Below, piece after piece: positions 1-43,698 of a stretch of DNA of 44,942 nucleotides. The first letter of the stretch is position 1, and every line of letters starts with the position of its first letter. This DNA comes from a virus, in the IMG/VR virus record IMGVR_UViG_3300035180_001002, positions 1 to 44,942 of that record. One strand, 5' to 3'. The notes beneath the pieces were generated by a model, which saw only the letters and a program-made list of their open reading frames with translations, had not been told where the DNA came from and did no database searches. A program made the translations under genes and the position numbers.

Positions 1-168
1 TGAGAACAAAGACGGTCAGATGTTGGAGGATCAGTAATGCCTCTCGTCCCATTCGACGGCCAGCCGATCGACACCAGTACGGCTGTTGCTCCGCCCCCGC
101 CTCCCCCGCCTCCCCCGCCTCCCCCGCCTCCCCCGACTCCCGGGGGTCCCCCCGCCCCGGTGTCAGCC
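1..168. repeat. Left copy of genome-end overlap (direct repeat)
   Basis: These 168 bases recur at the right end (44784-44942, 159 bases). The only difference is one 9-base unit (cctcccccg), present four times here and three times at the right end. Both copies hold the 3' end of one ejection-protein gene and the 5' end of the next, so joining the ends restores two intact genes. This is the signature of a circular or circularly permuted assembly. A true terminal repeat cannot be excluded. Confidence 0.95.
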
Positions 169-3100
169 AAATCAACCCTTGTCCCCTACGACCCCAACGC
201 AGCCGGTGATTCTGGTTCCGATGGGTTGACCAGGGGCAAGAAGATTCTCGGCGATTTCTGGGACTCATTGACCTCGGAAAGCCCCAAGGAGATCTTGGCT
301 CGTGGTCTAGGTCCGAATCTGGTCAAAGGCACTGCCCGCGTTTTCAATGAAGCCCGCAAAAAGCAGGGGCCTGAGGCACTCCAACTTCCTCCCCCTCCTG
401 AGGGCATGCGGTACACCACCGATCAAGAATATAAGGACACGGGCCGCGCTCTGATCAAGGTCGAGCAACCGAAGGAATTGTCACAAGTCTTGATGCAGGC
501 GAAGGATTTCGCGATCGCTCGGCCCGGGGCCACGGCGGCGGAGTTCATCAAGTCTATCGGGGCCGACCCAGAATTGCTGTTGCCGTTCGTCGGCGAGACC
601 GGACTGGCTACCAAGCTCAGCCAAGTGGTAGGCCGTCTAGGTAAGCTCGGGGGTACCGCTGGTAGGGTCCTCGGTAAGGGAATCGAAGGGGCTGCTCTCG
701 GGGCCGGTATATCGGGGGCTGACCAGTACTCGACGGGGCAGGGTGATGGTGCGGAGATAGCGTCCTCGGCGCTGATCACTGGCGCTCTATCGTCGTTCGT
801 CGGGCTCCGGGCGGGTCATATTCCAGCTGCTGAGCGCGCATCCGGTAAGATTTCGGATGCGACAGCCGGGGAAATCCTGAACAGGTACGCCGAAAAGACT
901 GGCGCAGAGCCCGACATCACCGTTGCTGATGTGAAGCGGATGATGCACGATGAACTGCACGGCGATGCAGACATCAAGGCTCGAGCGAGTGCCCAAAAGC
1001 TTCACGATATGGATGTGCCTGACGGAAAAGCCAAGAAGGCACTGGATAACCCACTGATCAAGCGCCATTACGATGAGATCACCGCCCGCCGCGAACAAGC
1101 GAAGCAGGCGTTCGAAGCTGATGCTAATGACCCGGCCAAGGCCCAAGCCGATCTTACCGCCCGCAAAGAGGAGTTGAAGCAGCAGCGGGCCAAGGAGCTT
1201 CAAGCGGTCAAGCAGCGCCAGATGGACGACGAGACCGCACTGAAGGCGAAGTGGGAGTACGAAGACGACCTGAACACCAAAAAGCAGGACGTCGAGAAAG
1301 CTTACCAGGTTGAATCCCTGTGGGGCGACCGGGCGACCCAAAAAGCCGAAGCCGCGAGCCGTGAGGCGCAACAGGCGAAGATCGATGAACTGGATAAGCT
1401 CGAACATAATCTACGCGGTGAACGGTCGCCACGTGGCCAATCGGGAAAGGCCGACCCTGAATTCCTGATGAAGCTGGCTATCCCCGGTGTCGGGGCTATC
1501 ATGGCCATGAAGTTGGTCGAGGAAGATAAAGTAGAGGCGGCGATTGCGGGTGGTCTGGGCGCTGCTGCATTGACCTACCTCCCCCGATACCTTGAATTCA
1601 TCCGCCGCGACTGGAAATCAGCGATGGCCGACACGGCTGGCGTCAGTATTGTGACGGGTCTGGGCGTTACTCTGGACAAGGATCACCCGGCTGAGGGTGC
1701 GATGCTCGGGATGTTGTACGGTGCGGGCAAGGTCCTCCCCAAGGCGATCGTCCCCCGCATCGGGAACATGAGCATTGACGACATCATCAATTTGCGGAAT
1801 GGCAGCATCGCCGCCCGTGAGCGTGAAGTCGCGAATGTGGCCTGGGCCATCAAGACGGCTGTACCGGACCCAGTTCGTCGTGAAGCTATTTCCCGTGCCC
1901 TGGAGAAGAATGACCTGTCCGCCCTGTCTGAGAATGAAGTGAAGGCGGCCCAGGCGTACCGCCACTTCACCGAGGGCATGGGGTCGATTGCGATGGAATC
2001 GGGAGTTCTGAAAGATCTGGTCGAGAATTACGTCACCCACGTAGTCGAGAAAGTCGGACTGCCGACCACCCGAATCGACGAGATCATGGACGAGTTGTTC
2101 GCGGGCGATGCCAGCAAGCGGACGGGGGCCAGCGGTTCCAGTCCCAAGACGCCATTCGCGAAAGAGCGTCGGTACGACACGTTCGAGGAACTGCAGAAAG
2201 CGCTTGAAGGCACTGATTCCCGCATCAAGACCATGGACATTGCCGATATCACCCAAATCTACGGCGAGAGCATGGGCCGGGCGGTCGAAAACAAGATCAT
2301 GATCGACAGCCTGAAGAGGGCAAAGGAACCGAAAGAGGGCGGCAGTCCATACATCGCCCCTTACGAATCGGCGCCCCCGGGATATATGACCATCAACAAC
2401 CCCCAAATGCGGGGGCTCATGATTCATCCGGATCTAGCCAAGCCGATGCAATTCGTCCTTGAAGGCAAGTCACACAACGACCTATTGTCGGGTGCAGTGG
2501 CGCTGGCCACCGCTCAAAAGCGTCTTGCGGTCGGGTTCTCTTTCTTCCACGCCGCGAACCTGGGTAACGCTTATATCGGCGCTTCTGGTACGAAGTCGGT
2601 CTTCGGCAGGCAGGCGATCGATGCCGCACTGAATGCTTACCGGAATGGCGGGGCGGGCGACACTATCGACATGTTGTTGAAGAATGGCTTGCGGGTCGAA
2701 CGTCCAATGGAAGTGGACCAAAACGCGTTGGCCCGGATCGGGGAATTGGCCGATTACGGCATCGAACGCGCCACCGGACTGAAAACCGCTGCGGGCGAAC
2801 GAACCCTCGGTAGCGTCGAACGGGTGCAACGCGAAGTATTTGATCGACTTACCTGGGACTACATGCACACCGGCATGAAGTTAGCAGTCGGTATGCGAGA
2901 ATTTGAACGGCTGACCCTGAAACACCCGGACGTACCGAAAGAGAAGATCGCCGCCCAAGTCGGTTCTTACGTGAACGACACCTTCGGCGGACTGGACTGG
3001 TATCGGGTCGCAACAGAGTCACAATCCCAACTGGGCCGCCGTGTTGGTCTTGCCGCATTGAACCCTCAGGCCCGCGTTTTCTTGCAACTCGGGATGTTCG

Positions 3101-3675
3101 CCCCTGACTGGACCCTTTCCACGTTCCGGGCGATGTACAAGGCATTGCCGGGGTCGACCGATCGGCCATTGACGAAGGAACTCCACCAGAAATACGTGAT
3201 GCGTACCGCCGCACTGTGGATGGTGGCGATGAACGGCCTGAACATGCAGACCTCCGGCCACCCGATCTGGGAGAACAAAGACCCAACTCGAATCGAGTTC
3301 AAAGACGGTACCGGCATGCAGATGGCGAAGCACGCCATGGAAGGCCCGGAATGGCTGTTGCACCCTAGGCAGACGGCGTTGAACAAATTGGGTGCGTTTA
3401 CCAAACTGCCATTTGAACTGGCTACCGGTAAAGAATATATCTCGGCGGATGGTGTTGCTCCGCCAATTGATTCACGGACTGGGCACATCATCAAGTCTAT
3501 GGCCCCGATTGCCATTTCTTCGACCGCCAACAGTGACTTGCCGGTCGAAGAGAAGATCAAGCGGTCGACGATGGGTGCGGTCGGTATGCCGATTTATGGT
3601 ATGACGGACGAGCAGAAGGCGGCGTCCCGCGAAGCCCGCAAAGAAGCGAAGAAGCGTAAGAAGGAACGGGAATGA
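37..3675 (+). CDS. Large internal virion / ejection protein (1212 aa)
   Basis: A 1212-residue protein, the last and largest of three consecutive ejection-type genes once the ends are joined. The N-terminus has 15 consecutive prolines (residues 19-33). Residues about 200-230 and 470-510 are Gly/Ala-rich, hydrophobic and possibly membrane-active, with a highly charged coiled-coil stretch between them (about 330-460). The C-terminal third has a block including NDTFGGLDW and LGMFAPDWTLST, which I recall from large podoviral internal and polyvalent proteins. The tail is Lys/Arg/Glu-rich. The start codon overlaps the upstream stop as TAATG, and GGAGG sits about 10 bases upstream. Late expression and injection with the DNA are inferred from position and size. 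No lytic transglycosylase motif was seen. Confidence 0.75.
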   Translation: MPLVPFDGQPIDTSTAVAPPPPPPPPPPPPPPPTPGGPPAPVSAKSTLVPYDPNAAGDSGSDGLTRGKKILGDFWDSLTSESPKEILARGLGPNLVKGTARVFNEARKKQGPEALQLPPPPEGMRYTTDQEYKDTGRALIKVEQPKELSQVLMQAKDFAIARPGATAAEFIKSIGADPELLLPFVGETGLATKLSQVVGRLGKLGGTAGRVLGKGIEGAALGAGISGADQYSTGQGDGAEIASSALITGALSSFVGLRAGHIPAAERASGKISDATAGEILNRYAEKTGAEPDITVADVKRMMHDELHGDADIKARASAQKLHDMDVPDGKAKKALDNPLIKRHYDEITARREQAKQAFEADANDPAKAQADLTARKEELKQQRAKELQAVKQRQMDDETALKAKWEYEDDLNTKKQDVEKAYQVESLWGDRATQKAEAASREAQQAKIDELDKLEHNLRGERSPRGQSGKADPEFLMKLAIPGVGAIMAMKLVEEDKVEAAIAGGLGAAALTYLPRYLEFIRRDWKSAMADTAGVSIVTGLGVTLDKDHPAEGAMLGMLYGAGKVLPKAIVPRIGNMSIDDIINLRNGSIAAREREVANVAWAIKTAVPDPVRREAISRALEKNDLSALSENEVKAAQAYRHFTEGMGSIAMESGVLKDLVENYVTHVVEKVGLPTTRIDEIMDELFAGDASKRTGASGSSPKTPFAKERRYDTFEELQKALEGTDSRIKTMDIADITQIYGESMGRAVENKIMIDSLKRAKEPKEGGSPYIAPYESAPPGYMTINNPQMRGLMIHPDLAKPMQFVLEGKSHNDLLSGAVALATAQKRLAVGFSFFHAANLGNAYIGASGTKSVFGRQAIDAALNAYRNGGAGDTIDMLLKNGLRVERPMEVDQNALARIGELADYGIERATGLKTAAGERTLGSVERVQREVFDRLTWDYMHTGMKLAVGMREFERLTLKHPDVPKEKIAAQVGSYVNDTFGGLDWYRVATESQSQLGRRVGLAALNPQARVFLQLGMFAPDWTLSTFRAMYKALPGSTDRPLTKELHQKYVMRTAALWMVAMNGLNMQTSGHPIWENKDPTRIEFKDGTGMQMAKHAMEGPEWLLHPRQTALNKLGAFTKLPFELATGKEYISADGVAPPIDSRTGHIIKSMAPIAISSTANSDLPVEEKIKRSTMGAVGMPIYGMTDEQKAASREARKEAKKRKKERE
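91..135 (+). repeat. Poly-proline tandem 9-base repeat
   Basis: Fifteen consecutive proline codons, built mainly of four cctcccccg units. The right-end copy (44874-44909) has one unit fewer, giving 12 prolines. The tract lies at residues 19-33 of the large ejection protein. Slippage during replication, population variation or an assembly error could each explain the length difference. Confidence 0.95.
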
Positions 3676-4979
3676 ACGTACTACTTGTTGATCGTGGTGG
3701 ATACATGCTCGACTTTGCCTTGCGCTGCAAGGCTGCGGGGCACGATGTCCGTTGGTTCCTTGGCAAATTCAAGGATGGAGTACGGAACCCCCAAGGGGAC
3801 GGCTTCGGATTGAACAAGGTCACGGCGTGGCACCCGTCGATGAAGTGGGCGGACCTGATCGTACTTCCCGACAACTCGGTATATATGGACGAACTGGAGC
3901 CATACCACCGGGCTGGGTACCCGATTTGGGGGCCGAATAAGGAAATCACCGAATGGGAAATGAACCGCGAGACCGGGGCTGAAGTCCTCCGGTCAGTCGG
4001 TATCAAGACCATCGAGTCGCACAAATTCAAGCGAATTCCTGAGGCCATGTCCTTCCTGATGGCGAACCCTCGGCGGTTTGTGTCGAAGGTGAACGACGAC
4101 AATGACTCCAAGGCTCTGAGCTACGTGGCCAAGTCGCCAAAAGACCTGATGTTCATGCTCCAGAAGTGGGGAAAGATGAAAGCCCTAAAGAGCGAGTTCA
4201 TCTTCCAAGAGTTCACCCCGGGTATCGAAGTCGCGGTCGGGGGCTGGTTCGGTCGTGATGGCTTCTCCAAGTACTTCCTGGAGAATTTCGAACATAAGAA
4301 GTTGATGAACGGGGAGATTGGCGTCAATACCGGCGAAATGGGTACCGTGCTGAAATACACGGAAAAGTCGGCTCTGGCTGAACACCTGCTCCGCCCCCTT
4401 GAAGGACATTTGTACCGTGCGAAATACAGTGGCTACATCGACGTTGCGGTCATCATCGCGAAAGACGGGACCCCGTATCCGTTGGAATTCACATCGCGTC
4501 CGGGGTGGCCCCTATTTGAGATCCAACAAGCGCTTCACCCCGATCCGTGCGCCTGGATGGCGAATTCGCTACACGGGATCGAATCCTTCCGTCCACTGAC
4601 GAAAGTGGCCACCGGGGTCGTCATTACGATGCCCGATTTCCCATTCTGTGCCGCCCCCCGGGCTGAGAAGATGGGGTTCCCCCTCTACGGGTGGGACAAG
4701 ATTCCCGGCAAGAACCTCCACCTATCACAGGTGATGATGGGCGAAGCCCCGGGTGATGACCTCAAGCCAGAGCCAATCCCGGTCACGATCGGTGAATGCG
4801 TCTGCACCATTTCAGGTACCGGCAACACGGTGTCCGAGTCCCAAGCTGCGGCTTACAAGAACGTGGACCGCATCGAGCTTCCGAATTCCCCGATGTACCG
4901 GACGGACATCGGGGATCGGATCAAGGACCAGCTTCCTGTACTTCAGAAGCACGGCTGGATGGAAGACTGGGAATACTAG
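3672..4979 (+). CDS. PurD-like ATP-grasp ligase (phosphoribosylamine-glycine ligase family)
   Basis: A 435-residue protein with the layout of GAR synthetase (PurD): an N-terminal nucleotide-type beta-alpha start (MNVLLVDRGG), a central ATP-grasp, and a C-terminal domain ending in a PurD-like YRTDIGDR (residues 409-416). Residues 217-224, GVNTGEMG, match the PurD GPNTGGMG loop, and LEFTSRPGWP (about 271-280) sits where PurD has its EFNCRFGDPE metal/ATP loop. In that loop Asn of the E-x-N metal pair is Thr and the following Asp-Pro-Glu is lost, so the substrate may differ from glycine plus phosphoribosylamine. It overlaps the ejection-protein stop as ATGA and is followed by the holin, so it is a late gene. 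A purine-pathway role fits a Z-genome phage, but that is inference. Confidence 0.75.
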   Translation: MNVLLVDRGGYMLDFALRCKAAGHDVRWFLGKFKDGVRNPQGDGFGLNKVTAWHPSMKWADLIVLPDNSVYMDELEPYHRAGYPIWGPNKEITEWEMNRETGAEVLRSVGIKTIESHKFKRIPEAMSFLMANPRRFVSKVNDDNDSKALSYVAKSPKDLMFMLQKWGKMKALKSEFIFQEFTPGIEVAVGGWFGRDGFSKYFLENFEHKKLMNGEIGVNTGEMGTVLKYTEKSALAEHLLRPLEGHLYRAKYSGYIDVAVIIAKDGTPYPLEFTSRPGWPLFEIQQALHPDPCAWMANSLHGIESFRPLTKVATGVVITMPDFPFCAAPRAEKMGFPLYGWDKIPGKNLHLSQVMMGEAPGDDLKPEPIPVTIGECVCTISGTGNTVSESQAAAYKNVDRIELPNSPMYRTDIGDRIKDQLPVLQKHGWMEDWEY

Positions 4980-4988
4980 GAGATAATC

Positions 4989-5474
4989 ATGTGGCTCACT
5001 TTACTCTCAATGCTCGGCGGCGGAGTCCTCCGCTTAGTCCCATTCGTGATAGATATCTTCAAGCAGAAGACGGACGCCGACCACGAATATCGAATGACCC
5101 AACTGCAATTGCAGATCGACCAAGCACGGGCTTCACAAGCCATCGATCTGGCCCACGCCCAAGCGTCGATCGCTTCAGCAGCCGGTGAAATGCAAGCATG
5201 GTCTGACGCTATAAAGGGCCAGTCCGAAAACACAGGCATTCATTGGGTTGATGCGGTCAGCAAGACAGTGCGGCCATTCTTGACCTATTATTGGTGCATC
5301 CTGCTGTACGGGTCAGCAAAAGCTATCCAGATCTGGGTTGCCATCCAAGAACATGTGACGCTATCGGCGCTGGTCCCTATTCTGGTGACCGCATTCGACC
5401 AGCAGGTCATTGCCGGCATGCTAGCTTTCTGGTTCGTCGACCGTGCTATCTCTAAGATGGCTGGAGACATCTGA
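4989..5474 (+). CDS. Holin-like membrane protein (three hydrophobic segments)
   Basis: A 161-residue protein with three hydrophobic stretches: residues about 3-24, about 95-118 (around RPFLTYYWCILLYG) and about 122-153. A charged, Gln/Ala-rich helix (about 30-65) separates the first two. This resembles the three-segment holin family of gene-transfer agents and many phages (the Pfam name I recall is GTA_holin_3TM), although I could not run a profile. A good Shine-Dalgarno site (TAGGAG) precedes the ATG. The stop overlaps the endolysin start as TGATG, the usual holin-endolysin coupling. Pore formation in the inner membrane at lysis is inferred from the neighbour. Confidence 0.7.
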   Translation: MWLTLLSMLGGGVLRLVPFVIDIFKQKTDADHEYRMTQLQLQIDQARASQAIDLAHAQASIASAAGEMQAWSDAIKGQSENTGIHWVDAVSKTVRPFLTYYWCILLYGSAKAIQIWVAIQEHVTLSALVPILVTAFDQQVIAGMLAFWFVDRAISKMAGDI

Positions 5475-5893
5475 TGGTGTCGCGGATACTGGTGGCGCTC
5501 ATAAAGCGCTTCGAAGGGTGTCGGCTCCACACATACCTGTGCCCCGCTGGAGTACCGACAGGGGGGTGGGGAAGTACCGGCCCGGATGTGAAATTGGGGC
5601 AGGTCTGGTCCCAAGAGTACGCCGATGCCCGGATGGAAAAGGATGCCATGACCTTCCAATCAGCGACCGTGATGATGTGCCCCACAGCGGACACTGAAGG
5701 CCGGGTTGCCGCGCTATCCGACTTCGCGTACAACCTCGGCTTAACCCGCTTAAAAGCATCGACCCTCCGTAAGAGGGTCTTGGCTCGGGACTGGAAGGGC
5801 GCCCGCGTCGAAATCAAGAAGTGGAATCGTGGCGGGGGTCGGGTGTTGAAGGGTTTGGTACTTCGCCGGGAGGCGGAGGCGAATCTTCTGTAG
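5474..5893 (+). CDS. Endolysin, GH24-type lysozyme (muramidase)
   Basis: A 139-residue lysozyme of the T4/P22 type, which cleaves the beta-1,4 bond between MurNAc and GlcNAc. The motif KRFEG (E14), CPAG (C23) and T29 in PTGGWGS reproduce the E-8-D/C-5-T catalytic spacing, with Cys in place of the usual Asp, as described for some phage lysozymes such as P1 Lyz. ALSDFAYNLG and LRRREAEANLL are typical of the C-terminal lobe. There is no signal peptide, so access depends on the holin encoded directly upstream (TGATG overlap). The last 80 bases overlap, tail to tail, a small gene on the other strand. Confidence 0.9.
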   Translation: MVSRILVALIKRFEGCRLHTYLCPAGVPTGGWGSTGPDVKLGQVWSQEYADARMEKDAMTFQSATVMMCPTADTEGRVAALSDFAYNLGLTRLKASTLRKRVLARDWKGARVEIKKWNRGGGRVLKGLVLRREAEANLL

Positions 5894-8553: not shown

Positions 8554-8990
8554 AGAATGCTCCTATTTGTTATGGTCGACAACTGCCTAGGGAGGACAGA
8601 CCGCATGAGTGAAATGTGAAATGCTAGTGTGGCGCATTTGAGGAGTTCCCCTTTGGAGATTGATTCGAGGAATCGGTGACGATAGCGATTGTGCACAAGA
8701 TAGCAATCATCGCCACCACGAAGAAGTAGATGCGAAGGAACCCTTTCGCCATGACTTTCAAACCATCGGAATTGTGAGGGTTCGAGTGTGAATTTGAGTA
8801 AAGAGTTTTCTTTTTCATGGCTGACAGCTTTTAGTTCAAGCCACCCGGTCTCATGGTCATCACCTACCATAACGTACGACATGTCCGGGATACCTGGGTT
8901 GAGGTTATTCTCAACATGGATGGAGGGCAACCATGTGCCCGCCATCCGCTTAGTGATCTCCTTCCTGAATTCAAGCTCAAGTTTATTCAC
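8529..8990 (-). CDS. VRR-NUC type PD-(D/E)XK nuclease
   Basis: A 153-residue nuclease. GIPDM (P35-D36) and WLELK (E52-L53-K54) form the PD-(D/E)XK core, followed by the EPSQFRW element usual in VRR-NUC proteins. The likely role is branched-DNA resolution or recombination during phage replication. I chose the GTG at 8990, which overlaps the DatZ stop as GTGA and has GCGGAG upstream. An ATG at 9014 would add eight residues that do not look like part of the fold. It sits between the Z-nucleotide genes and the primase, so it belongs to the replication operon. Confidence 0.75.
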   Translation of the reverse strand: MNKLELEFRKEITKRMAGTWLPSIHVENNLNPGIPDMSYVMVGDDHETGWLELKAVSHEKENSLLKFTLEPSQFRWFESHGERVPSHLLLRGGDDCYLVHNRYRHRFLESISKGELLKCATLAFHISLMRSVLPRQLSTITNRSILWTVRTKM

Positions 8991-9541
8991 GGCACCATGT
9001 ACTCCGCAATGCACTGGTTGACATGGGCCACCACCACTGACGGGACGTTATTGATCATGTCCTGGATCTTCAAGTTGAGTTGAGCGCGCAACCCTTTTTC
9101 AGCGTGCTTCGCCGTGGTACCGATACCATACAAGGCGATGAACCGGATGCCGTCAGCCAAATCACACAGCTTGACCAGCATCTTGATGTCGGGTGTGTTC
9201 GTCACGAACCGTCTGAACACGGTGGGCGTCGCATTGGTTTCCAGGTCGTCCATACCCTTGACGAATTGCTTTGTGGGGGTGGGGAGGTCCCCCAACAGCA
9301 CTTCACCGATGTCATGTACCAGGGCGGTGGCCACCGCGATCGAATAGTTACCGAAGTACATCTGCGGACAGGTGACACTGATATAGCCCGCCAGCATCGC
9401 CACGTTCGCAGAATGCTCGGCCAATGTCTGCTGGCGATAGGTGTCGACCAGATGCCAACGCTTGGTGGACTGGAAGCGCTTGATGACTTCAACAGCCTGC
9501 TCACGTGGATTGGTCGTTGCGAAAAGTGAATCGAAGTTCAT
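8987..9541 (-). CDS. datZ: DatZ: HD-domain dATP triphosphohydrolase
   Basis: A 184-residue HD-domain protein. AEHSANVAML supplies the first His, ALVHDIGEVLLGD the HD pair, and KLCDLADGI the distal Asp of an H...HD...D metal site. In Z-genome phages DatZ removes the triphosphate from dATP, so that dATP is purged from the pool while dZTP is spared. The name rests on this fold plus its place directly beside mazZ, purZ and the polymerase. An ATG at 9541 overlaps the mazZ stop as ATGA, with AGGAAG upstream; an in-frame TTG further up is less likely. Confidence 0.88.
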   Translation of the reverse strand: MNFDSLFATTNPREQAVEVIKRFQSTKRWHLVDTYRQQTLAEHSANVAMLAGYISVTCPQMYFGNYSIAVATALVHDIGEVLLGDLPTPTKQFVKGMDDLETNATPTVFRRFVTNTPDIKMLVKLCDLADGIRFIALYGIGTTAKHAEKGLRAQLNLKIQDMINNVPSVVVAHVNQCIAEYMVP

Positions 9542-9831
9542 GGTGTCTTCCTGTGTTGCCAAGTGTTAGTGGATGGGTCGTAATCCCACTCACGGTCCAT
9601 CAGAATGGTGAGCTTCCTGTTGATAGCCTCGTGCAGGTCGATACGCTTCCGGGCGGCGTAGTCCAAGAACAGGATAAACACATCGGCTACCTCATCGGGG
9701 TCGCCATGGGATTCGATGACTTCAGCGAGTTCGCCGTACAACTTGAGGTACATGCTGGCATCGGTGCGATTCGGGAACAGCTTGTCCGCCATTGCCTTGC
9801 ACTGTTCAGCCATTTTATTGATATCAGCCAT
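9538..9831 (-). CDS. mazZ: MazZ: MazG-type (d)NTP pyrophosphohydrolase
   Basis: A 97-residue all-alpha MazG-like protein. GELAEVIE gives the first E-x-x-E pair and DEVADVF the E-x-x-D pair that bind Mg2+ in this superfamily. In Z-genome phages MazZ converts (d)GTP to (d)GMP, which supplies the PurZ substrate and lowers competing nucleotides. It overlaps the end of purZ by 8 bases and the start of datZ by 4, so the three are translated as a coupled unit. The usual Shine-Dalgarno signal is weak, which fits coupling. Assignment is by motif plus context. Confidence 0.88.
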   Translation of the reverse strand: MADINKMAEQCKAMADKLFPNRTDASMYLKLYGELAEVIESHGDPDEVADVFILFLDYAARKRIDLHEAINRKLTILMDREWDYDPSTNTWQHRKTP

Positions 9832-10894
9832 GGCGCACTACCGAGTTGAATTCGTCGATCGTCAAGATCTGGCTGTCGTCGGGGCCGGTGCCGATCCATT
9901 CAACCTTGGGTGGGTTCATCGCCTTGGGGTGGAACCCCTCAATGCGCTTGATCAAAACAACAAGATCCTCGGCCGAGTGCATGTAGTTGGCGAAATTGAG
10001 GAAGATCCGGGTGTTCCAGTACCCGCCGCAGTGCATGAGCGCCGAATCCAGCTGCTGTTCACTGAATGTGAAGATTCGGCGCGGCAGCTTGGTGACGGTG
10101 GTCAATTCAGGCTCGACGCCGATATCCGCCCAGTCGATCTCGATCTGGTCATTGTAACAAGGCCCGGAACTACCGTCACGATTGTTGACGCGAATCGGGA
10201 ACGTGCGGAGCGTGCCGATCACTTCAATGTAAGGAGCCCAACGGAACGGCAGGCCACAATCCGCCGCGATCTGCCAAGGCGTCACATCCCTGGAAGTCGT
10301 ATACGGGTACTGACCATGATACATCGAGAGGCTAAAGCCCTGCGCGCCCTCGATGATGACGTTCCGGGCACCACAGACCGCTTGGTCGTATTCCTCTGGC
10401 GTGACCACGTAACGGGAAAGGCCGGTCCCGCGCAGACGATTCTTGGCCACGTTGGCCGCGTCCGGGCGGCGCCTGATACGCTCAATGAACGCGTCACCGA
10501 CACCTTTTGCCGTGGAACCCATTGCAGTCCTGCCGTCCGACTGTTCTTGTTCAGCGTGGTAATCTTCGACAATCGCGGCATGGGAGTGAATCATCAGGCG
10601 CTTACCGTGCATATACGCACCGTAGCGTAGTAATTCGTCCTGTAAAGTCCGCACGTGGATCGCTGAGCCCGGGCCGAGCATGACATTCTTCACCGTGTCG
10701 CTGATGATCGAAGTCGGCAGCTGTTGGGTCATCATTTCGATGTGCTGCGAATTGTTGATATACGTATGTCCCGCGTTGGTCGCGAACGCACAGATCGCGG
10801 TATCGTAGTTGTTTCGGTTGGCGAGATATCCCGCAATCAGGCCCTTGCCGGTGGACCCATATTGAAAGTCCATGATCATGTCACACTTATGCAT
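9824..10894 (-). CDS. purZ: PurZ: adenylosuccinate synthetase-like N6-succino-2-amino-dAMP synthase
   Basis: A 356-residue PurA homologue, about 75 residues shorter than bacterial PurA. The P-loop reads QYGSTGKG (residues 11-18): the PurA catalytic Asp of GDEGKG is Ser14, the hallmark of PurZ. NAGHT, IIEGAQG, YPYTTS and STGP/GTGPDD-like elements are kept. PurZ joins dGMP and aspartate using a nucleoside triphosphate, giving a precursor that host PurB turns into dZMP, after which host kinases make dZTP. The ATG has GGAG 8 bases upstream. It is followed by mazZ (8-base overlap) and preceded by a small unknown gene and dpoZ. This is the strongest evidence that the phage DNA carries 2-aminoadenine. 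Confidence 0.95.
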   Translation of the reverse strand: MHKCDMIMDFQYGSTGKGLIAGYLANRNNYDTAICAFATNAGHTYINNSQHIEMMTQQLPTSIISDTVKNVMLGPGSAIHVRTLQDELLRYGAYMHGKRLMIHSHAAIVEDYHAEQEQSDGRTAMGSTAKGVGDAFIERIRRRPDAANVAKNRLRGTGLSRYVVTPEEYDQAVCGARNVIIEGAQGFSLSMYHGQYPYTTSRDVTPWQIAADCGLPFRWAPYIEVIGTLRTFPIRVNNRDGSSGPCYNDQIEIDWADIGVEPELTTVTKLPRRIFTFSEQQLDSALMHCGGYWNTRIFLNFANYMHSAEDLVVLIKRIEGFHPKAMNPPKVEWIGTGPDDSQILTIDEFNSVVRHG

Positions 10895-13279: not shown

Positions 13280-14041
13280 TCAGACCTCCCCTCGTTCGCT
13301 GGTCTCGCTGCCTTCGACGTCACCAACGGTCTCGTGGGCGACCCGGAAGTCCTGAGTCTTCAGAACCTCGTAGAGCGCTTCGGCCTGTTCATAAACGGCC
13401 TTGGGGGCGAACCCGGCGGGCTGGACAACGAAGTTGAAGAACTTCTGACCCTTCTTGTTCTCGTCCTTGAACGTGGTCAGCTTGTAGACCCGGCTGAACC
13501 GGTCGCCCCCGGCGATCTGGATCATGGCGTTCCACTTGCGGGATACCTTGGCCTTCGTCTTAGCCATGGAAATCACGATCTGCTCAACCGTGCCGGCAGG
13601 GTCGATGCGCAGGCCGTATTGTACCGGCGTATCGACGATCTCGATCAGGTCGGGGTCTTCACCACCGGCGATGACCTCGGCGCGACGCGCTTCGGCTTCC
13701 TGCATCGAGTTGAACGAGCCGAAGAAGCCGCCGCCCTCGTTCTGGTCCTTCCAGATCAGGTATTCCAGGCGGAAGTAGACAGGTACGAAATAGGCCATGT
13801 CACCGATCACTTCTTGGGTCACCGAGTTGAACAAGTAGCCCTCCTTGGCTTCCTCGTTCGATTCCTTGATCGGGCTCAAAGCCTGGACGATCTCCAGGCG
13901 AGGGAGAACCATGTCGGTCGACTTGACTTCCTCGGATCCCCGAGCGACGCCCTGCTTCATGTAGTCGGGGACTTCCTGCGAGAACGCGACTGCGTTGTCT
14001 TGCCTGGTCACGACTTCGGTTGCGGTTTTCTTGGTAGCCAT
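13280..14041 (-). CDS. Possible ssDNA-binding / DNA-metabolism protein (253 aa)
   Basis: A 253-residue soluble protein with a block, MVLPRLEIVQALSP, followed by an EGYLFN element and an aromatic-rich middle (VPVYFRLEYLIW). It has an acidic C-terminal tail (VGDVEGSETSERGEV), as single-strand binding proteins often do. I have seen this class as a conserved phage protein near replication genes, without firm function. Position beside a helicase and polymerase supports a DNA-binding role, but no OB-fold motif can be proven by eye. Terminator-like hairpins lie on both sides, one upstream at 14067-14105 and others downstream of its small partner gene. Confidence 0.6.
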   Translation of the reverse strand: MATKKTATEVVTRQDNAVAFSQEVPDYMKQGVARGSEEVKSTDMVLPRLEIVQALSPIKESNEEAKEGYLFNSVTQEVIGDMAYFVPVYFRLEYLIWKDQNEGGGFFGSFNSMQEAEARRAEVIAGGEDPDLIEIVDTPVQYGLRIDPAGTVEQIVISMAKTKAKVSRKWNAMIQIAGGDRFSRVYKLTTFKDENKKGQKFFNFVVQPAGFAPKAVYEQAEALYEVLKTQDFRVAHETVGDVEGSETSERGEV

Positions 14042-14114: not shown

Positions 14115-14702
14115 TCAGGCCTTGACGATCGACGCCCGGGTGAATGGGGTCACGCTGAAGATGTCGTCAGGGATATCGACGCCTTCAACGATCTGGCGGC
14201 GGAAGAGCGCCTTCAACGACGATGCGTTGTACGTATCCTTGATCATATCGGAGTAGCCGCAATCGCGGAGCCATTGCATCGCGGCGTCCTTCTGACCTTT
14301 GCGGGTCGATGCGTAAATGTCCGGCGCGGTCTGGACCCGGCCGATGCCGTTGAAGGTGGCTGTCTTGACCTCCAAGCTCTCCATCAACTCGGGGATCTTC
14401 TTGAGCCGCAGATCGTCGAGGGGGATGCGGACATCGGCAGCCTGTGCCTTGATTTGCAGAGCCTTGGCCTGGAGTTCCTTCATGCGGATACACAATTGAC
14501 GCAGGGTCTCCATGTCGCCGGTCATGGGTTCGCTGTCCTGCCGGTCGTCGACCATCATTTCTTGCGGGATCGCGCCCAAGAACAGAATGGCGGTCTCCAG
14601 GACGTCGGCCAATTCGAACATTTCTGCGTCGCGCAGTTCTTCGATACCGGCAGCGAGTGCCATCAGCAAGGACTCGTATCGGGTCATCGTCAAATTAGAC
14701 AT
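14115..14702 (-). CDS. Gp33-like helical phage protein of unknown role
   Basis: A 195-residue protein. The ATG at 14702 (MSNLTMTRYE) has GGAGAG upstream and lies 17 bases after the previous stop; an upstream in-frame ATG would overlap that gene by 65 bases. The centre is a long helix (LRQLCIRMKELQAKALQIKAQAADVRIPLDDLRLKKIPELMESL). The C-terminus, with GIGRVQTAPDIYASTRKGQKD and WLRDCGY, recalls phage Gp33-type proteins. Position among replication genes suggests a role in DNA metabolism, which is not shown. Confidence 0.65.
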   Translation of the reverse strand: MSNLTMTRYESLLMALAAGIEELRDAEMFELADVLETAILFLGAIPQEMMVDDRQDSEPMTGDMETLRQLCIRMKELQAKALQIKAQAADVRIPLDDLRLKKIPELMESLEVKTATFNGIGRVQTAPDIYASTRKGQKDAAMQWLRDCGYSDMIKDTYNASSLKALFRRQIVEGVDIPDDIFSVTPFTRASIVKA

Positions 14703-14718
14703 GCTACTATCTCTCCTA

Positions 14719-15087
14719 TCAAACGTTGAGGGGAACCGGAATCTCATGATCAAACCCGGTGATGCGATACCGGTTCTCTTCACGGCGCCACACGAGGAAT
14801 CGGGGCACCTTGCCTGCGCGCCCCATGATCCAGCCGACCATCAAAATGGCCATGGGCTGGCCAGTGGTGATGATGTAATCCGCCATTTCATCGTACTCAT
14901 GCACGAATTTGACGACATCCGTCTTCCACTGATCTTGCACGCTCGACCGGCCATAGACCGGCAAATCGTGCGTGGTGATGAAATGCAGGTCTCCGAATCC
15001 CAGAGCCTTCGAGTAATCCATCGGAATCGGGCCGATGTCGCCACGCAACATCTGCTCTTTGATGACCCACACCTTTGGCTTGTTCAT
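14719..15087 (-). CDS. Unknown protein (122 aa), first gene after a strong promoter
   Basis: A 122-residue protein (MNKPKVWVIKEQM...) that I do not recognise. It has an aromatic, mixed alpha/beta character, including VVKFVHEYDEMADYIITTGQPMAIL and GRAGKVPRFLVWRREENRYR, and no membrane segment. TAGGAT lies upstream of the ATG, and a sigma70-type promoter ends 33 bases upstream. It is therefore likely the first gene of the transcript that continues to the 195-residue protein. Confidence 0.65.
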   Translation of the reverse strand: MNKPKVWVIKEQMLRGDIGPIPMDYSKALGFGDLHFITTHDLPVYGRSSVQDQWKTDVVKFVHEYDEMADYIITTGQPMAILMVGWIMGRAGKVPRFLVWRREENRYRITGFDHEIPVPLNV

Positions 15088-40581: not shown

Positions 40582-41283
40582 ATGTCCGCGAATACTGTAG
40601 TTCGTCTGATCCAGCAAGCCTACGAGAATGCAAAGGTCGTAGGCTCTGGTATGGAGCCCAATAGTGAGCAATATGCTAAGGGGTTCAAGCGACTCACCGA
40701 TCTGGTTGCGTGGGAACAGACCCAGGGGGTGAAAATATTCACCATTCAAGAGTACTCCTTGGCTCTGACTCAGGGACTGGGGACGTACACATTCGGACCC
40801 CTTGGGACCCAGGTCATGGCGAAGCCTTACCGCATCGACACTTGTTGGTACGAAGATGCTCAATCGATTCGTCGCCCTATGGACCGGATGACTTGGGATG
40901 ACTACACCCGACTCCCGGAAGATGTGAATCAGGGGTCAGTGCTGAAGTATCTCGAAGACCGCCAGGAAGCTTTGGTCACGCTTAAATTTTGGCAGTTGCC
41001 GGACGAGACAGCTGCCGCTGGCACCGTGAAATGCTTGCTGCGTCGCCAACTGGTCCCATACGTGACCCTGAATGACGACTTACAGTTTGCGCCTGAATGG
41101 TTTATCGGATTGGCTTGGTTGTTGGCCGATGAGTTGGCTTCGAACCAGAACCAAGCTATTCAGGCCAATTGCCGTAACAAGGCGGGCATGTACATGGGGA
41201 CTTTGCGTGACCAAGACGTCGAGCAGGGTTCCATTTCATTCTCCATGGATACGGGGCACGGGAATGACCGACACTACTGGTGA
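40582..41283 (+). CDS. Head-to-tail adaptor (P22 gp4 / T7 gp11-like)
   Basis: A 233-residue protein. VVRLIQQAYENAKVVGSGMEPNSEQYAKGFKRLTDLV and RPMDRMTWDDYTRL are signature stretches of podoviral tail-adaptor proteins, with a helical core and a beta insertion. It is the first ring below the portal. AAGGA precedes the ATG. Confidence 0.78.
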   Translation: MSANTVVRLIQQAYENAKVVGSGMEPNSEQYAKGFKRLTDLVAWEQTQGVKIFTIQEYSLALTQGLGTYTFGPLGTQVMAKPYRIDTCWYEDAQSIRRPMDRMTWDDYTRLPEDVNQGSVLKYLEDRQEALVTLKFWQLPDETAAAGTVKCLLRRQLVPYVTLNDDLQFAPEWFIGLAWLLADELASNQNQAIQANCRNKAGMYMGTLRDQDVEQGSISFSMDTGHGNDRHYW

Positions 41284-42715
41284 TAAACAAGGCCCGATTG
41301 GGATCCCTCTTGCCATCCAGCTTGAGGTTCGACCAGCTTTGTCTGGTCAGGGCACGATCAATTATCCTGAATCGGTGCGGGACAGTGCCCATTCGATCAA
41401 CACCATCACTGATGAAACAGGGGTGATTCCTCGGCCCGCCATTCATTTCAAGAACAATACTAACGTCGGTGCCGGTCGGGGCATGTACGAATACCATGGC
41501 GCTTTGTTGTTGGCCGAAGGTAACATGCTCTACGGGGGCGGGGTTCCCCTCGGTACGACCGATATCGATAATGGTCCTATCGGAATGTGTGGGTCGGCGG
41601 GGGTGTACGGAGTTCTTCTGACGTCGCCGGTCGGGGGGTATTTCTGGGATAATTCGATCCTGACCACGATCACCGATGCGACCTTCCTGGCGATCGTTCA
41701 ACGGCAAACGAGTTGCGCTTACCTCGACGGTACGTTCTATGTTTGCGGTAAGTACGGCGACATCTGGGGTTCGAAGTATCTGAACAGTGCCATCGACTGG
41801 GATCCACTAAACCGCATCAATGCGTGGGCAGAACCGTCAGATCTGCTCGGAATCGTGACCCATCGTGAATACCTACTGGGTCTCAAGGAACAGTCAACAG
41901 CTGTCTTTTACGACGCGGGTACGCAGACCGGTTCGCCTCTCGGCGCACTGATGAACCTGAATCTGCCTTGGGGATGTGCCAATTTCGCAACGGTCCAAGA
42001 GGTTAATCGCGATCATATCTGGGTCGCGAATCACGAGAAGTATGGCCTCCAGGTCGTCAGGGTGTCAAACCTTCAAGCGAAGCCGATCTCCACCCCTGCG
42101 GTCGACCGATACCTTCAACGGAACCAATTCCAGATCACCCAAGCCCAGTCTTGGTCGGGCCGTGCATTCGGTCACTGGCTGTACGGTATCAATTTTCTGT
42201 CGTCTGTGACCGGGCGATGGGTTTCACTGGTATGCGACCTGAATACCGGCATCTGGAATTTTTGGTCGAATTCCATCGGTGAGGGGTACGGCTTCCGGGC
42301 GGGTGCTTCCATCAAATTCCCGACTGACCGACAGGTTTATCTACAAACCGCGAACTCAGGGTATTATTACCTTGATGAGATCGGTTACAAGGATTCTGAT
42401 GCGGTGGCGGCTCAGTACGACATCCGGGTTGAATTGACCACAGTCATGGTGGATGGCGGTACTTCGGTTGAGAAGACGGGCAATCGGCTTGAAGTATTGG
42501 CCGATTACCAGAGCAACGGCAAGATCTATGTCTGCTGGAGCGATGACGACTATCTCACTTGGTCCCCCTGGCGTGAAATGGCCATGGGGGGCGCGAATTG
42601 CTACCTGGATGACCTGGGAAATTTCAGGCGGCGTGCTTTCAAATTCCGTCATGAGAGCAATTCCCCATTCCGGATCAAGTCGGCGGTCCTGTTTGTGATG
42701 GCGGGTCTATCATGA
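41264..42715 (+). CDS. Tail tube / packaged-DNA stabilisation protein (P22 gp10 / T7 gp12-like)
   Basis: A 483-residue beta-rich protein from the ATG at 41264, which overlaps the adaptor gene by 20 bases. HREYLLGLKEQSTAVFYDAGTQTGSPL, GCANFATVQEVNRDHIWVANH and KPISTPAVDRYL match the propeller-like repeats of P22 gp10-type proteins. It closes the tail and holds the DNA in. The upstream in-frame start would lie within the adaptor gene and is unlikely. Confidence 0.75.
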   Translation: MTDTTGDKQGPIGIPLAIQLEVRPALSGQGTINYPESVRDSAHSINTITDETGVIPRPAIHFKNNTNVGAGRGMYEYHGALLLAEGNMLYGGGVPLGTTDIDNGPIGMCGSAGVYGVLLTSPVGGYFWDNSILTTITDATFLAIVQRQTSCAYLDGTFYVCGKYGDIWGSKYLNSAIDWDPLNRINAWAEPSDLLGIVTHREYLLGLKEQSTAVFYDAGTQTGSPLGALMNLNLPWGCANFATVQEVNRDHIWVANHEKYGLQVVRVSNLQAKPISTPAVDRYLQRNQFQITQAQSWSGRAFGHWLYGINFLSSVTGRWVSLVCDLNTGIWNFWSNSIGEGYGFRAGASIKFPTDRQVYLQTANSGYYYLDEIGYKDSDAVAAQYDIRVELTTVMVDGGTSVEKTGNRLEVLADYQSNGKIYVCWSDDDYLTWSPWREMAMGGANCYLDDLGNFRRRAFKFRHESNSPFRIKSAVLFVMAGLS

Positions 42716-43098: not shown

Positions 43099-43698
43099 AT
43101 GTCAGATTTGGCCGGATTCGATCTCAGTGGGTTCAGCGACCTGATGGGTGGCGGGGGAAGTGGTGGGGGTGGTGGCTTCGACTGGGGCGGTCTCCTAGGC
43201 GGCGTTGGAGGCTTGTTCAATTCGGCGGGTAACATTGCTGGCGGGATATGGGGCAACAACCAAGCCAAATCCGATCAGCAGATCCTTCAGCAGGCGTACG
43301 GTTTCAACGGTTCGCGCCCGATGTACGCGGACAAGCTCAATACCTTGATGGCCGATCCCTCTTCGATCACCAAAGACCCGGGCTACCAATTCCGTATGGA
43401 TCAGGCCATGCAGGGCTCTTCTCGGCAGATGGCGGCGCAGGGTTTGACCGGCAGTGGTACCGCTGCACAGGCATTGACCGACACCGGCTCGAAAGTCGCG
43501 GGCGATGAATTCAAGTCGATGTTTGATATGCTCAGCGGGTTGTCGGGCGCGAATTTCAACCCCGCTGATTACTTCAAGGGCATGATGTCAACACAACAAT
43601 CCCAACAGAATGCGGCGGGCCAAGCGGCAGGCGGTGGTGGGGATATGTTGGGCAGTCTGTTCGATATCGGGTCTAAGATCCTGCCGTTCTTCCTGTAA
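43099..43698 (+). CDS. Internal / DNA-ejection protein 1 (199 aa)
   Basis: A 199-residue protein with a Gly-rich N-terminus and the block ITKDPGYQFRMDQAMQGSSRQMAAQGLTGSGTAAQAL, which I recall from podoviral DNA-injection proteins. The end, GGDMLGSLFDIGSKILPFFL, is amphipathic. It would be injected with the genome to build the trans-envelope channel. It is followed by two larger ejection genes. Confidence 0.72.
   Translation: MSDLAGFDLSGFSDLMGGGGSGGGGGFDWGGLLGGVGGLFNSAGNIAGGIWGNNQAKSDQQILQQAYGFNGSRPMYADKLNTLMADPSSITKDPGYQFRMDQAMQGSSRQMAAQGLTGSGTAAQALTDTGSKVAGDEFKSMFDMLSGLSGANFNPADYFKGMMSTQQSQQNAAGQAAGGGGDMLGSLFDIGSKILPFFL

Follow-up and report, generated by a model that had tools for sequence, protein, structure and literature searches.

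The window, meaning the whole stretch of 44,942 nucleotides analysed here (positions 1 to 44,942 of the viral record IMGVR_UViG_3300035180_001002), encodes a predicted PurD-related ATP-grasp ligase which, in the reading that we favour with some reservation, carries out a reaction different from that of PurD and most likely serves the virion, by modifying or equipping it, instead of purine synthesis. The protein has the GAR-synthetase fold without being PurD: it is a member of a distinct, large family of ATP-driven ligases that is uncharacterised. In many otherwise different phages this family is found amid genes for virion construction and lysis, and for this reason the protein is probably neither a purine enzyme nor tied to the Z base. 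The gene is located as follows:

3672..4979, + strand: PurD-fold (GAR synthetase fold) ATP-grasp ligase of the E-x-T clade, 435 aa, ATG start, identified from profiles, an AF2 model and a tree

Profile comparison, the AF2 model (pLDDT 94.2, pTM 0.92) and the fold search all give a GAR synthetase fold with N, ATP-grasp and C domains. The best 15 PDB folds matching the model are all GAR synthetases (E-values from 9e-29 to 4e-25), the next match lying at 1e-16. GAR synthetases also rank top when the ligase itself is searched against solved structures, and they are the only matches of the family profile (best 7e-34). The full PurD layout reported in the preliminary description was therefore upheld by the family profiles and the fold search. 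The scores against the PurD families are low: Pfam returns GARS_A (4.9e-6) and GARS_C (4e-5), both under the curated cut-offs, and the purD profile TIGR00877 matches with an E-value of 8e-17 and 61.1 bits, not reaching the equivalog cut-off of 288 bits; complete true PurDs score 434-588 bits on the same profile. An ordinary PurD identity is rejected on this cut-off together with the signature, the active-site residues and the tree.

The residues of the active site were compared between 150 clade members and 21 true PurDs, their roles being carried over by alignment at about 20% identity. In PurD, ATP is contacted by Lys103, Lys143, Glu185, Glu192 and Lys214, glycine by Asp212, Arg287 and Glu292, and Mg2+ by Glu100 (PMC8880213), in a numbering which we take, from chain length and residue match, to be that of Aquifex PurD (2yw2). 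In the family-profile alignment the ATP residues correspond to R99, K139, Q179, E186 and K209 of the window protein, the glycine residues to E207, R276 and L281, and Glu100 to E96. The principal codons are:

3957..3968, + strand: E96 to R99; E96 aligns with PurD Glu100 (Mg2+) and R99 stands in place of PurD Lys103 (ATP), both in 150/150 members
4086..4088, + strand: K139, aligned with PurD Lys143 (ATP), in 150/150 members
4290..4298, + strand: E207 to K209; E207 in place of the glycine-binding Asp212, K209 aligned with Lys214
4440..4442, + strand: D257, acidic where PurD has Tyr, a candidate third metal ligand
4485..4514, + strand: E272-x-T274-x-R276-x-G-W279-P-L281, with an E-x-T metal pair and loss of the G-D-P-E loop

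Six residues (E96, K139, E186, K209, E272 and R276) are common to all 150 members and the 21 PurDs, and the hallmarks of the ATP-grasp superfamily, namely K139, K209, the hinge E186, the metal ligand E272 and R276, are present in 150/150. Around this core the two groups differ. R99 and E207 are found in every member (150/150 each), where the PurDs have Lys and Asp, respectively (21/21 each), and T274 replaces the PurD Asn in 150/150. Position 257, Tyr in PurD, is Asp in 147/150 members and Asn in 3 cellular members, and its role in metal binding is inferred from the alignment. The Asp found at position 279 in 21/21 PurDs is retained in 1/150 members and is Trp, Tyr or Phe in 144/150; the Glu found at position 281 in 21/21 PurDs is absent from the six commonest residues of the clade, which account for 147/150 members. 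The GARS signature PS00184, quoted in PMC3261824 as R-[LF]-G-D-P-E, has no match in the window, where the corresponding segment reads R-P-G-W-P-L. The GGR of the N-terminal GGREH loop, aligned in 21/21 PurDs, is missing from the window protein and from the clade as a whole. The preliminary description was right that the E-x-N metal pair had become E-x-T, the change being T274, and that the Asp-Pro-Glu loop was lost, G-D-P-E reading G-W-P-L; the structure prediction and active-site comparison with PurD which it proposed as a check yielded a GAR-synthetase fold with an altered active site. Because of these residue counts, the clade is predicted to keep the residues for ATP and acyl-phosphate, that is, the phosphoryl-transfer part, with the glycine-recognising part and probably also the phosphoribosylamine (PRA)-recognising part rebuilt. 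As far as sequence can tell, the clade protein is very probably an active ATP-grasp carboxylate-amine ligase other than PurD.

The clade is large. With three members as queries, IMG/VR yielded 100 confirmed stretches, from which 80 loci were kept, and a scan with a broad alignment, both patterns of which contain clade-specific residues, gave at least 569; these are counts of matching stretches with redundant contigs included, and many of the viral records are fragments. In a tree of 66 representatives PurD lies on one side of a branch (100/100) and the ligase clade on the other. The median dN/dS over 264 pairs is 0.069, with a maximum of 0.15, indicating strong purifying selection. In the GenBank phage set, searched with four divergent members, the sole clear clade member was MW202796, itself metagenomic, where the full-length ligase ORF (L001:42140-43447) has no annotated gene in the record. 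The other tblastn matches in this set, at 20-25% identity and some annotated as bacterial purD, accordingly look like canonical PurD from bacterial DNA; several of the phage records H2-H19 carry a seemingly ordinary bacterial purD, probably through bacterial DNA in the records.

In the window the ligase gene is embedded in a late module, the order across the record ends being Hc3-like gene, DNA-ejection-like gene, two large genes, ligase, 161-aa protein and lysozyme:

41072..42715, + strand: head closure (Hc3-like) protein, phrog_578, 1.2e-27; conserved upstream neighbour across the record ends, its cluster present in 44 loci
43099..43698, + strand: DNA-ejection/adaptor-like protein, weak match to phrog_598, 1.6e-4; conserved upstream neighbour, its cluster present in 46 loci
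37..3675, + strand: large late protein of 1212 aa, from its position probably an ejection protein or an internal protein of the virion; 4-bp overlap with the ligase start
4989..5474, + strand: 161-aa protein, phrog_6637 (unknown function), possible holin from its position and apparent hydrophobic segments
5474..5893, + strand: phage lysozyme, PF00959, 5e-33

The 1212-aa gene gave no family match in the profile searches, and we regard it as a probable ejection gene because of its position after the weak DNA-ejection match at 43099-43698. The ATG of the ligase overlaps the stop codon of this ORF by 4 bp, a probable sign of translational coupling, and the arrangement recurs: in the window's subfamily the ligase comes after a large ejection-type gene, with the exact 4-bp overlap in 57/83 loci (56/77 in a stricter recount). 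Tail/connector and ejection genes lie 4-7 kb upstream of the ligase in 38-46 subfamily loci and the lysozyme family lies downstream in 29, at a median of 457 bp, the neighbours having been called by ORF length so that small genes may be missed. In a different lineage (L153 and L155) the ligase is placed between the terminase large subunit (TerL) and the portal. The position beside lysis and ejection genes noted in the preliminary description is therefore real and conserved, with a PF00959 lysozyme downstream and a putative ejection role for the 1212-aa gene, and its argument that this position speaks against a plain supply of purines and in favour of another reaction is supported, as is the departure of the active site from PurD. 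Elsewhere in the window, between the polymerase and helicase genes, 13280-14041 and 14115-14783 on the - strand encode proteins like gp34 and gp33 of phage Pam3 (PF23977, PF23984).

Two further genes bear on the genome type:

9824..10894, - strand: PurZ, the Z-genome marker, not part of the ligase system; phrog_1211, 3e-69
8987..9562, - strand: DatZ-like HD phosphohydrolase; phrog_7076, 2e-24

Since PurZ and a DatZ-like phosphohydrolase are both present, the window is fairly read as a Z-genome phage, as had been claimed. The further suggestion that the ligase supplies a purine precursor for dZTP draws on the sharing of one genome by these genes, and it was not borne out: the PurZ profile, which matches the window as positive control, found PurZ in 0/31 and 0/22 records with ligase relatives, that is, in 0/53, of which about 37 are of at least 40 kb. 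Relatives thus occur in many phages in which purZ was not found. MW202796, the only clear clade member in the GenBank phage set, has the terminase, portal and a connector gene of the window, with PurZ and DatZ absent, and the late operon that contains the window ligase is separate from the purZ block. A supply of Z base is largely refuted, and we reject it on co-occurrence as extremely improbable. It is also very unlikely that the gene encodes a diverged PurD which acts as an ordinary auxiliary metabolic enzyme for purines and boosts late GAR synthesis. Such an origin would account for the PurD fold, and several viral surveys do list purD or GART among the purine genes of viruses (PMC11360552, PMC11097641, PMC12043954); however, E207 and T274 replace Asp and Asn in 150/150 members, GGREH and GDPE are lost, no other de novo purine gene was found in the relatives' records searched, and an own PurD above the cut-off is present in 5/6 of the host genomes or bins checked. 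PurM was found in none of 19 relatives' records, and the single PurF-profile match (record G004) is a glutamine-amidotransferase domain in an amidoligase-like cluster, so a phage purine operon was discarded. A non-catalytic relic serving as a virion scaffold would suit the location among structural genes, but the six residues invariant in the 150 members and a dN/dS of 0.07 fit an enzyme, and we give this explanation hardly any weight. A defence gene was likewise set aside, four members having been tested with no match to the PADLOC-DB protein models.

A stronger alternative, although in our judgement an unlikely one, is that the ligase makes a small molecule, an amide- or peptide-like metabolite which aids late infection or lysis or affects the host or competitors, and leaves the virion covalently unchanged. 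This alternative is suggested by the relatives outside phages, which occur in Acidovorax, another Burkholderiales genome, Sphingomonas and Roseomonas plasmids and a haloarchaeal plasmid; those of Acidovorax, Roseomonas, Halarchaeum and Sphingomonas have no adjoining virion genes, so the core reaction is not necessarily specific to virions. On the chromosome of Acidovorax sp. A1169 (L089:8829-12801) an NPPY-motif methyltransferase, the E-x-T ligase and a haem-oxygenase-like iron enzyme (PF14518) follow each other on one strand, an arrangement suggestive of a small biosynthetic operon. In G133, too, the ligase is preceded by a methyltransferase-like ORF, and an aminotransferase and a type III polyketide synthase lie near the Roseomonas copy. 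These cellular contexts, which resemble those of metabolite biosynthesis, make a small-molecule product possible; by itself such a product leaves the 4-bp overlap with ejection-type genes and the TerL-portal position unexplained. In L100 a methyltransferase-like ORF related to that of Acidovorax lies 5' of the ligase, and on a Sphingomonas daechungensis plasmid (L096:6971-8271) the ligase gene seems to be broken up into two annotated ORFs and has a small SET-domain gene beside it. Such relatives are rare: 5/300 Burkholderiales genomes matched at 1e-20, two of the five matches being ordinary PurD. All 6/6 Burkholderiaceae copies examined (two Paraburkholderia contigs and four found by family search) lie in prophage late modules.

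We propose that the ligase would use ATP and Mg2+ through E96, D257, E272, T274, K139, K209 and E186. R276 would hold a carboxylate in a pocket that has E207 and the aromatic residue 279 as its lining, and this carboxylate would be converted into an acyl-phosphate, prior to the attack of an amine bound in the remodelled N-terminal domain, from which the GGREH loop has been lost. This sequence of carboxylate plus ATP, acyl-phosphate and amine attack is the most economical reading. The gene product would then modify a virion protein, or equip the virion through a small molecule that is carried along or put to use when the particle is assembled or ejects its DNA. Modification or equipping of the virion is held to be the most likely outcome because of the 4-bp overlap with an ejection-type gene and the terminase/portal adjacency in another lineage; metabolic genes also occur in late operons, so a virion role does not follow from the late position by itself, and we consider an action at the virion stage (assembly, packaging or ejection) reasonably probable. 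A more specific proposal is that the clade, which spans hundreds of contigs of uncultivated phages and some Burkholderiaceae prophages, covalently links an amino-acid-like group during assembly, either to a protein of the virion or of ejection or to a compound that is packaged alongside the genome. This would be a new kind of ATP-driven modification of the virion; it is put forward tentatively and is doubtful in that precise form.

Many uncultivated phages thus carry a conserved enzyme in the virion operon to which no reaction is assigned and which can easily be logged as a purine gene. Viral 'purD' calls may partly belong to the ligase clade, and the counts of viral purD/GART surveys should be read as purine synthesis only after the residues have been checked (E-x-T or E-x-N, E207 or Asp, and GDPE). 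Should the ligase modify virions, it would represent a new step of phage assembly, and should it make a metabolite, a new phage product. The question is testable, as cultured Paraburkholderia strains have prophages with the ligase gene.

The closest known system is PurD itself (GAR synthetase, EC 6.3.4.13; TIGR00877, PF01071/PF02843), with which the clade shares the full-length fold, the domain order, the Lys/Glu/Lys of the ATP site, the metal Glu and the carboxylate Arg. It differs in having R99 (Lys in PurD), E207 (Asp), T274 (Asn), D257 (Tyr) and an aromatic residue at 279 (Asp), with no acid at 281 and no GGREH loop, and in lying far under the purD cut-off and in a separate clade. Brown et al. 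2011 (PMC3261824) describe two additional PurD-like proteins of haloarchaea, rrnAC0307 and Hlac_1553, in which R[LF]GDPE is without its conserved Asp and the N-terminal P-loop is divergent, and conclude that neither is a GAR synthetase. On this published description they are probably members of the ligase clade, inside which the haloarchaeal plasmid protein L098 groups; the account of the extra haloarchaeal PurDs, in the portion consulted, is given without phages, clade size or late-gene context. Our literature search found no article naming a phage PurD-like ATP-grasp clade, and the ligase model had no full-length match in a viral fold library. ATP-driven ligation of carboxyl and amino groups is known in phages from the amidoligase clusters, which combine an ATP-grasp protein, an amidoligase and a class II glutaminase. 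Amidoligase-type genes are unrelated to the ligase and were not found near the window gene; in G004, the phage record of a ligase relative, they lie elsewhere in the genome (L198:1089-5664), where an ATP-grasp gene, a class II glutaminase and two amidoligase-like genes resemble the known clusters. The phage peptide ligases of the R2K/CDC123 clade (PMC4431377, PMC7824862) are likewise ATP-grasp enzymes and are predicted to modify proteins, although they form a different ATP-grasp clade from the ligase described here.
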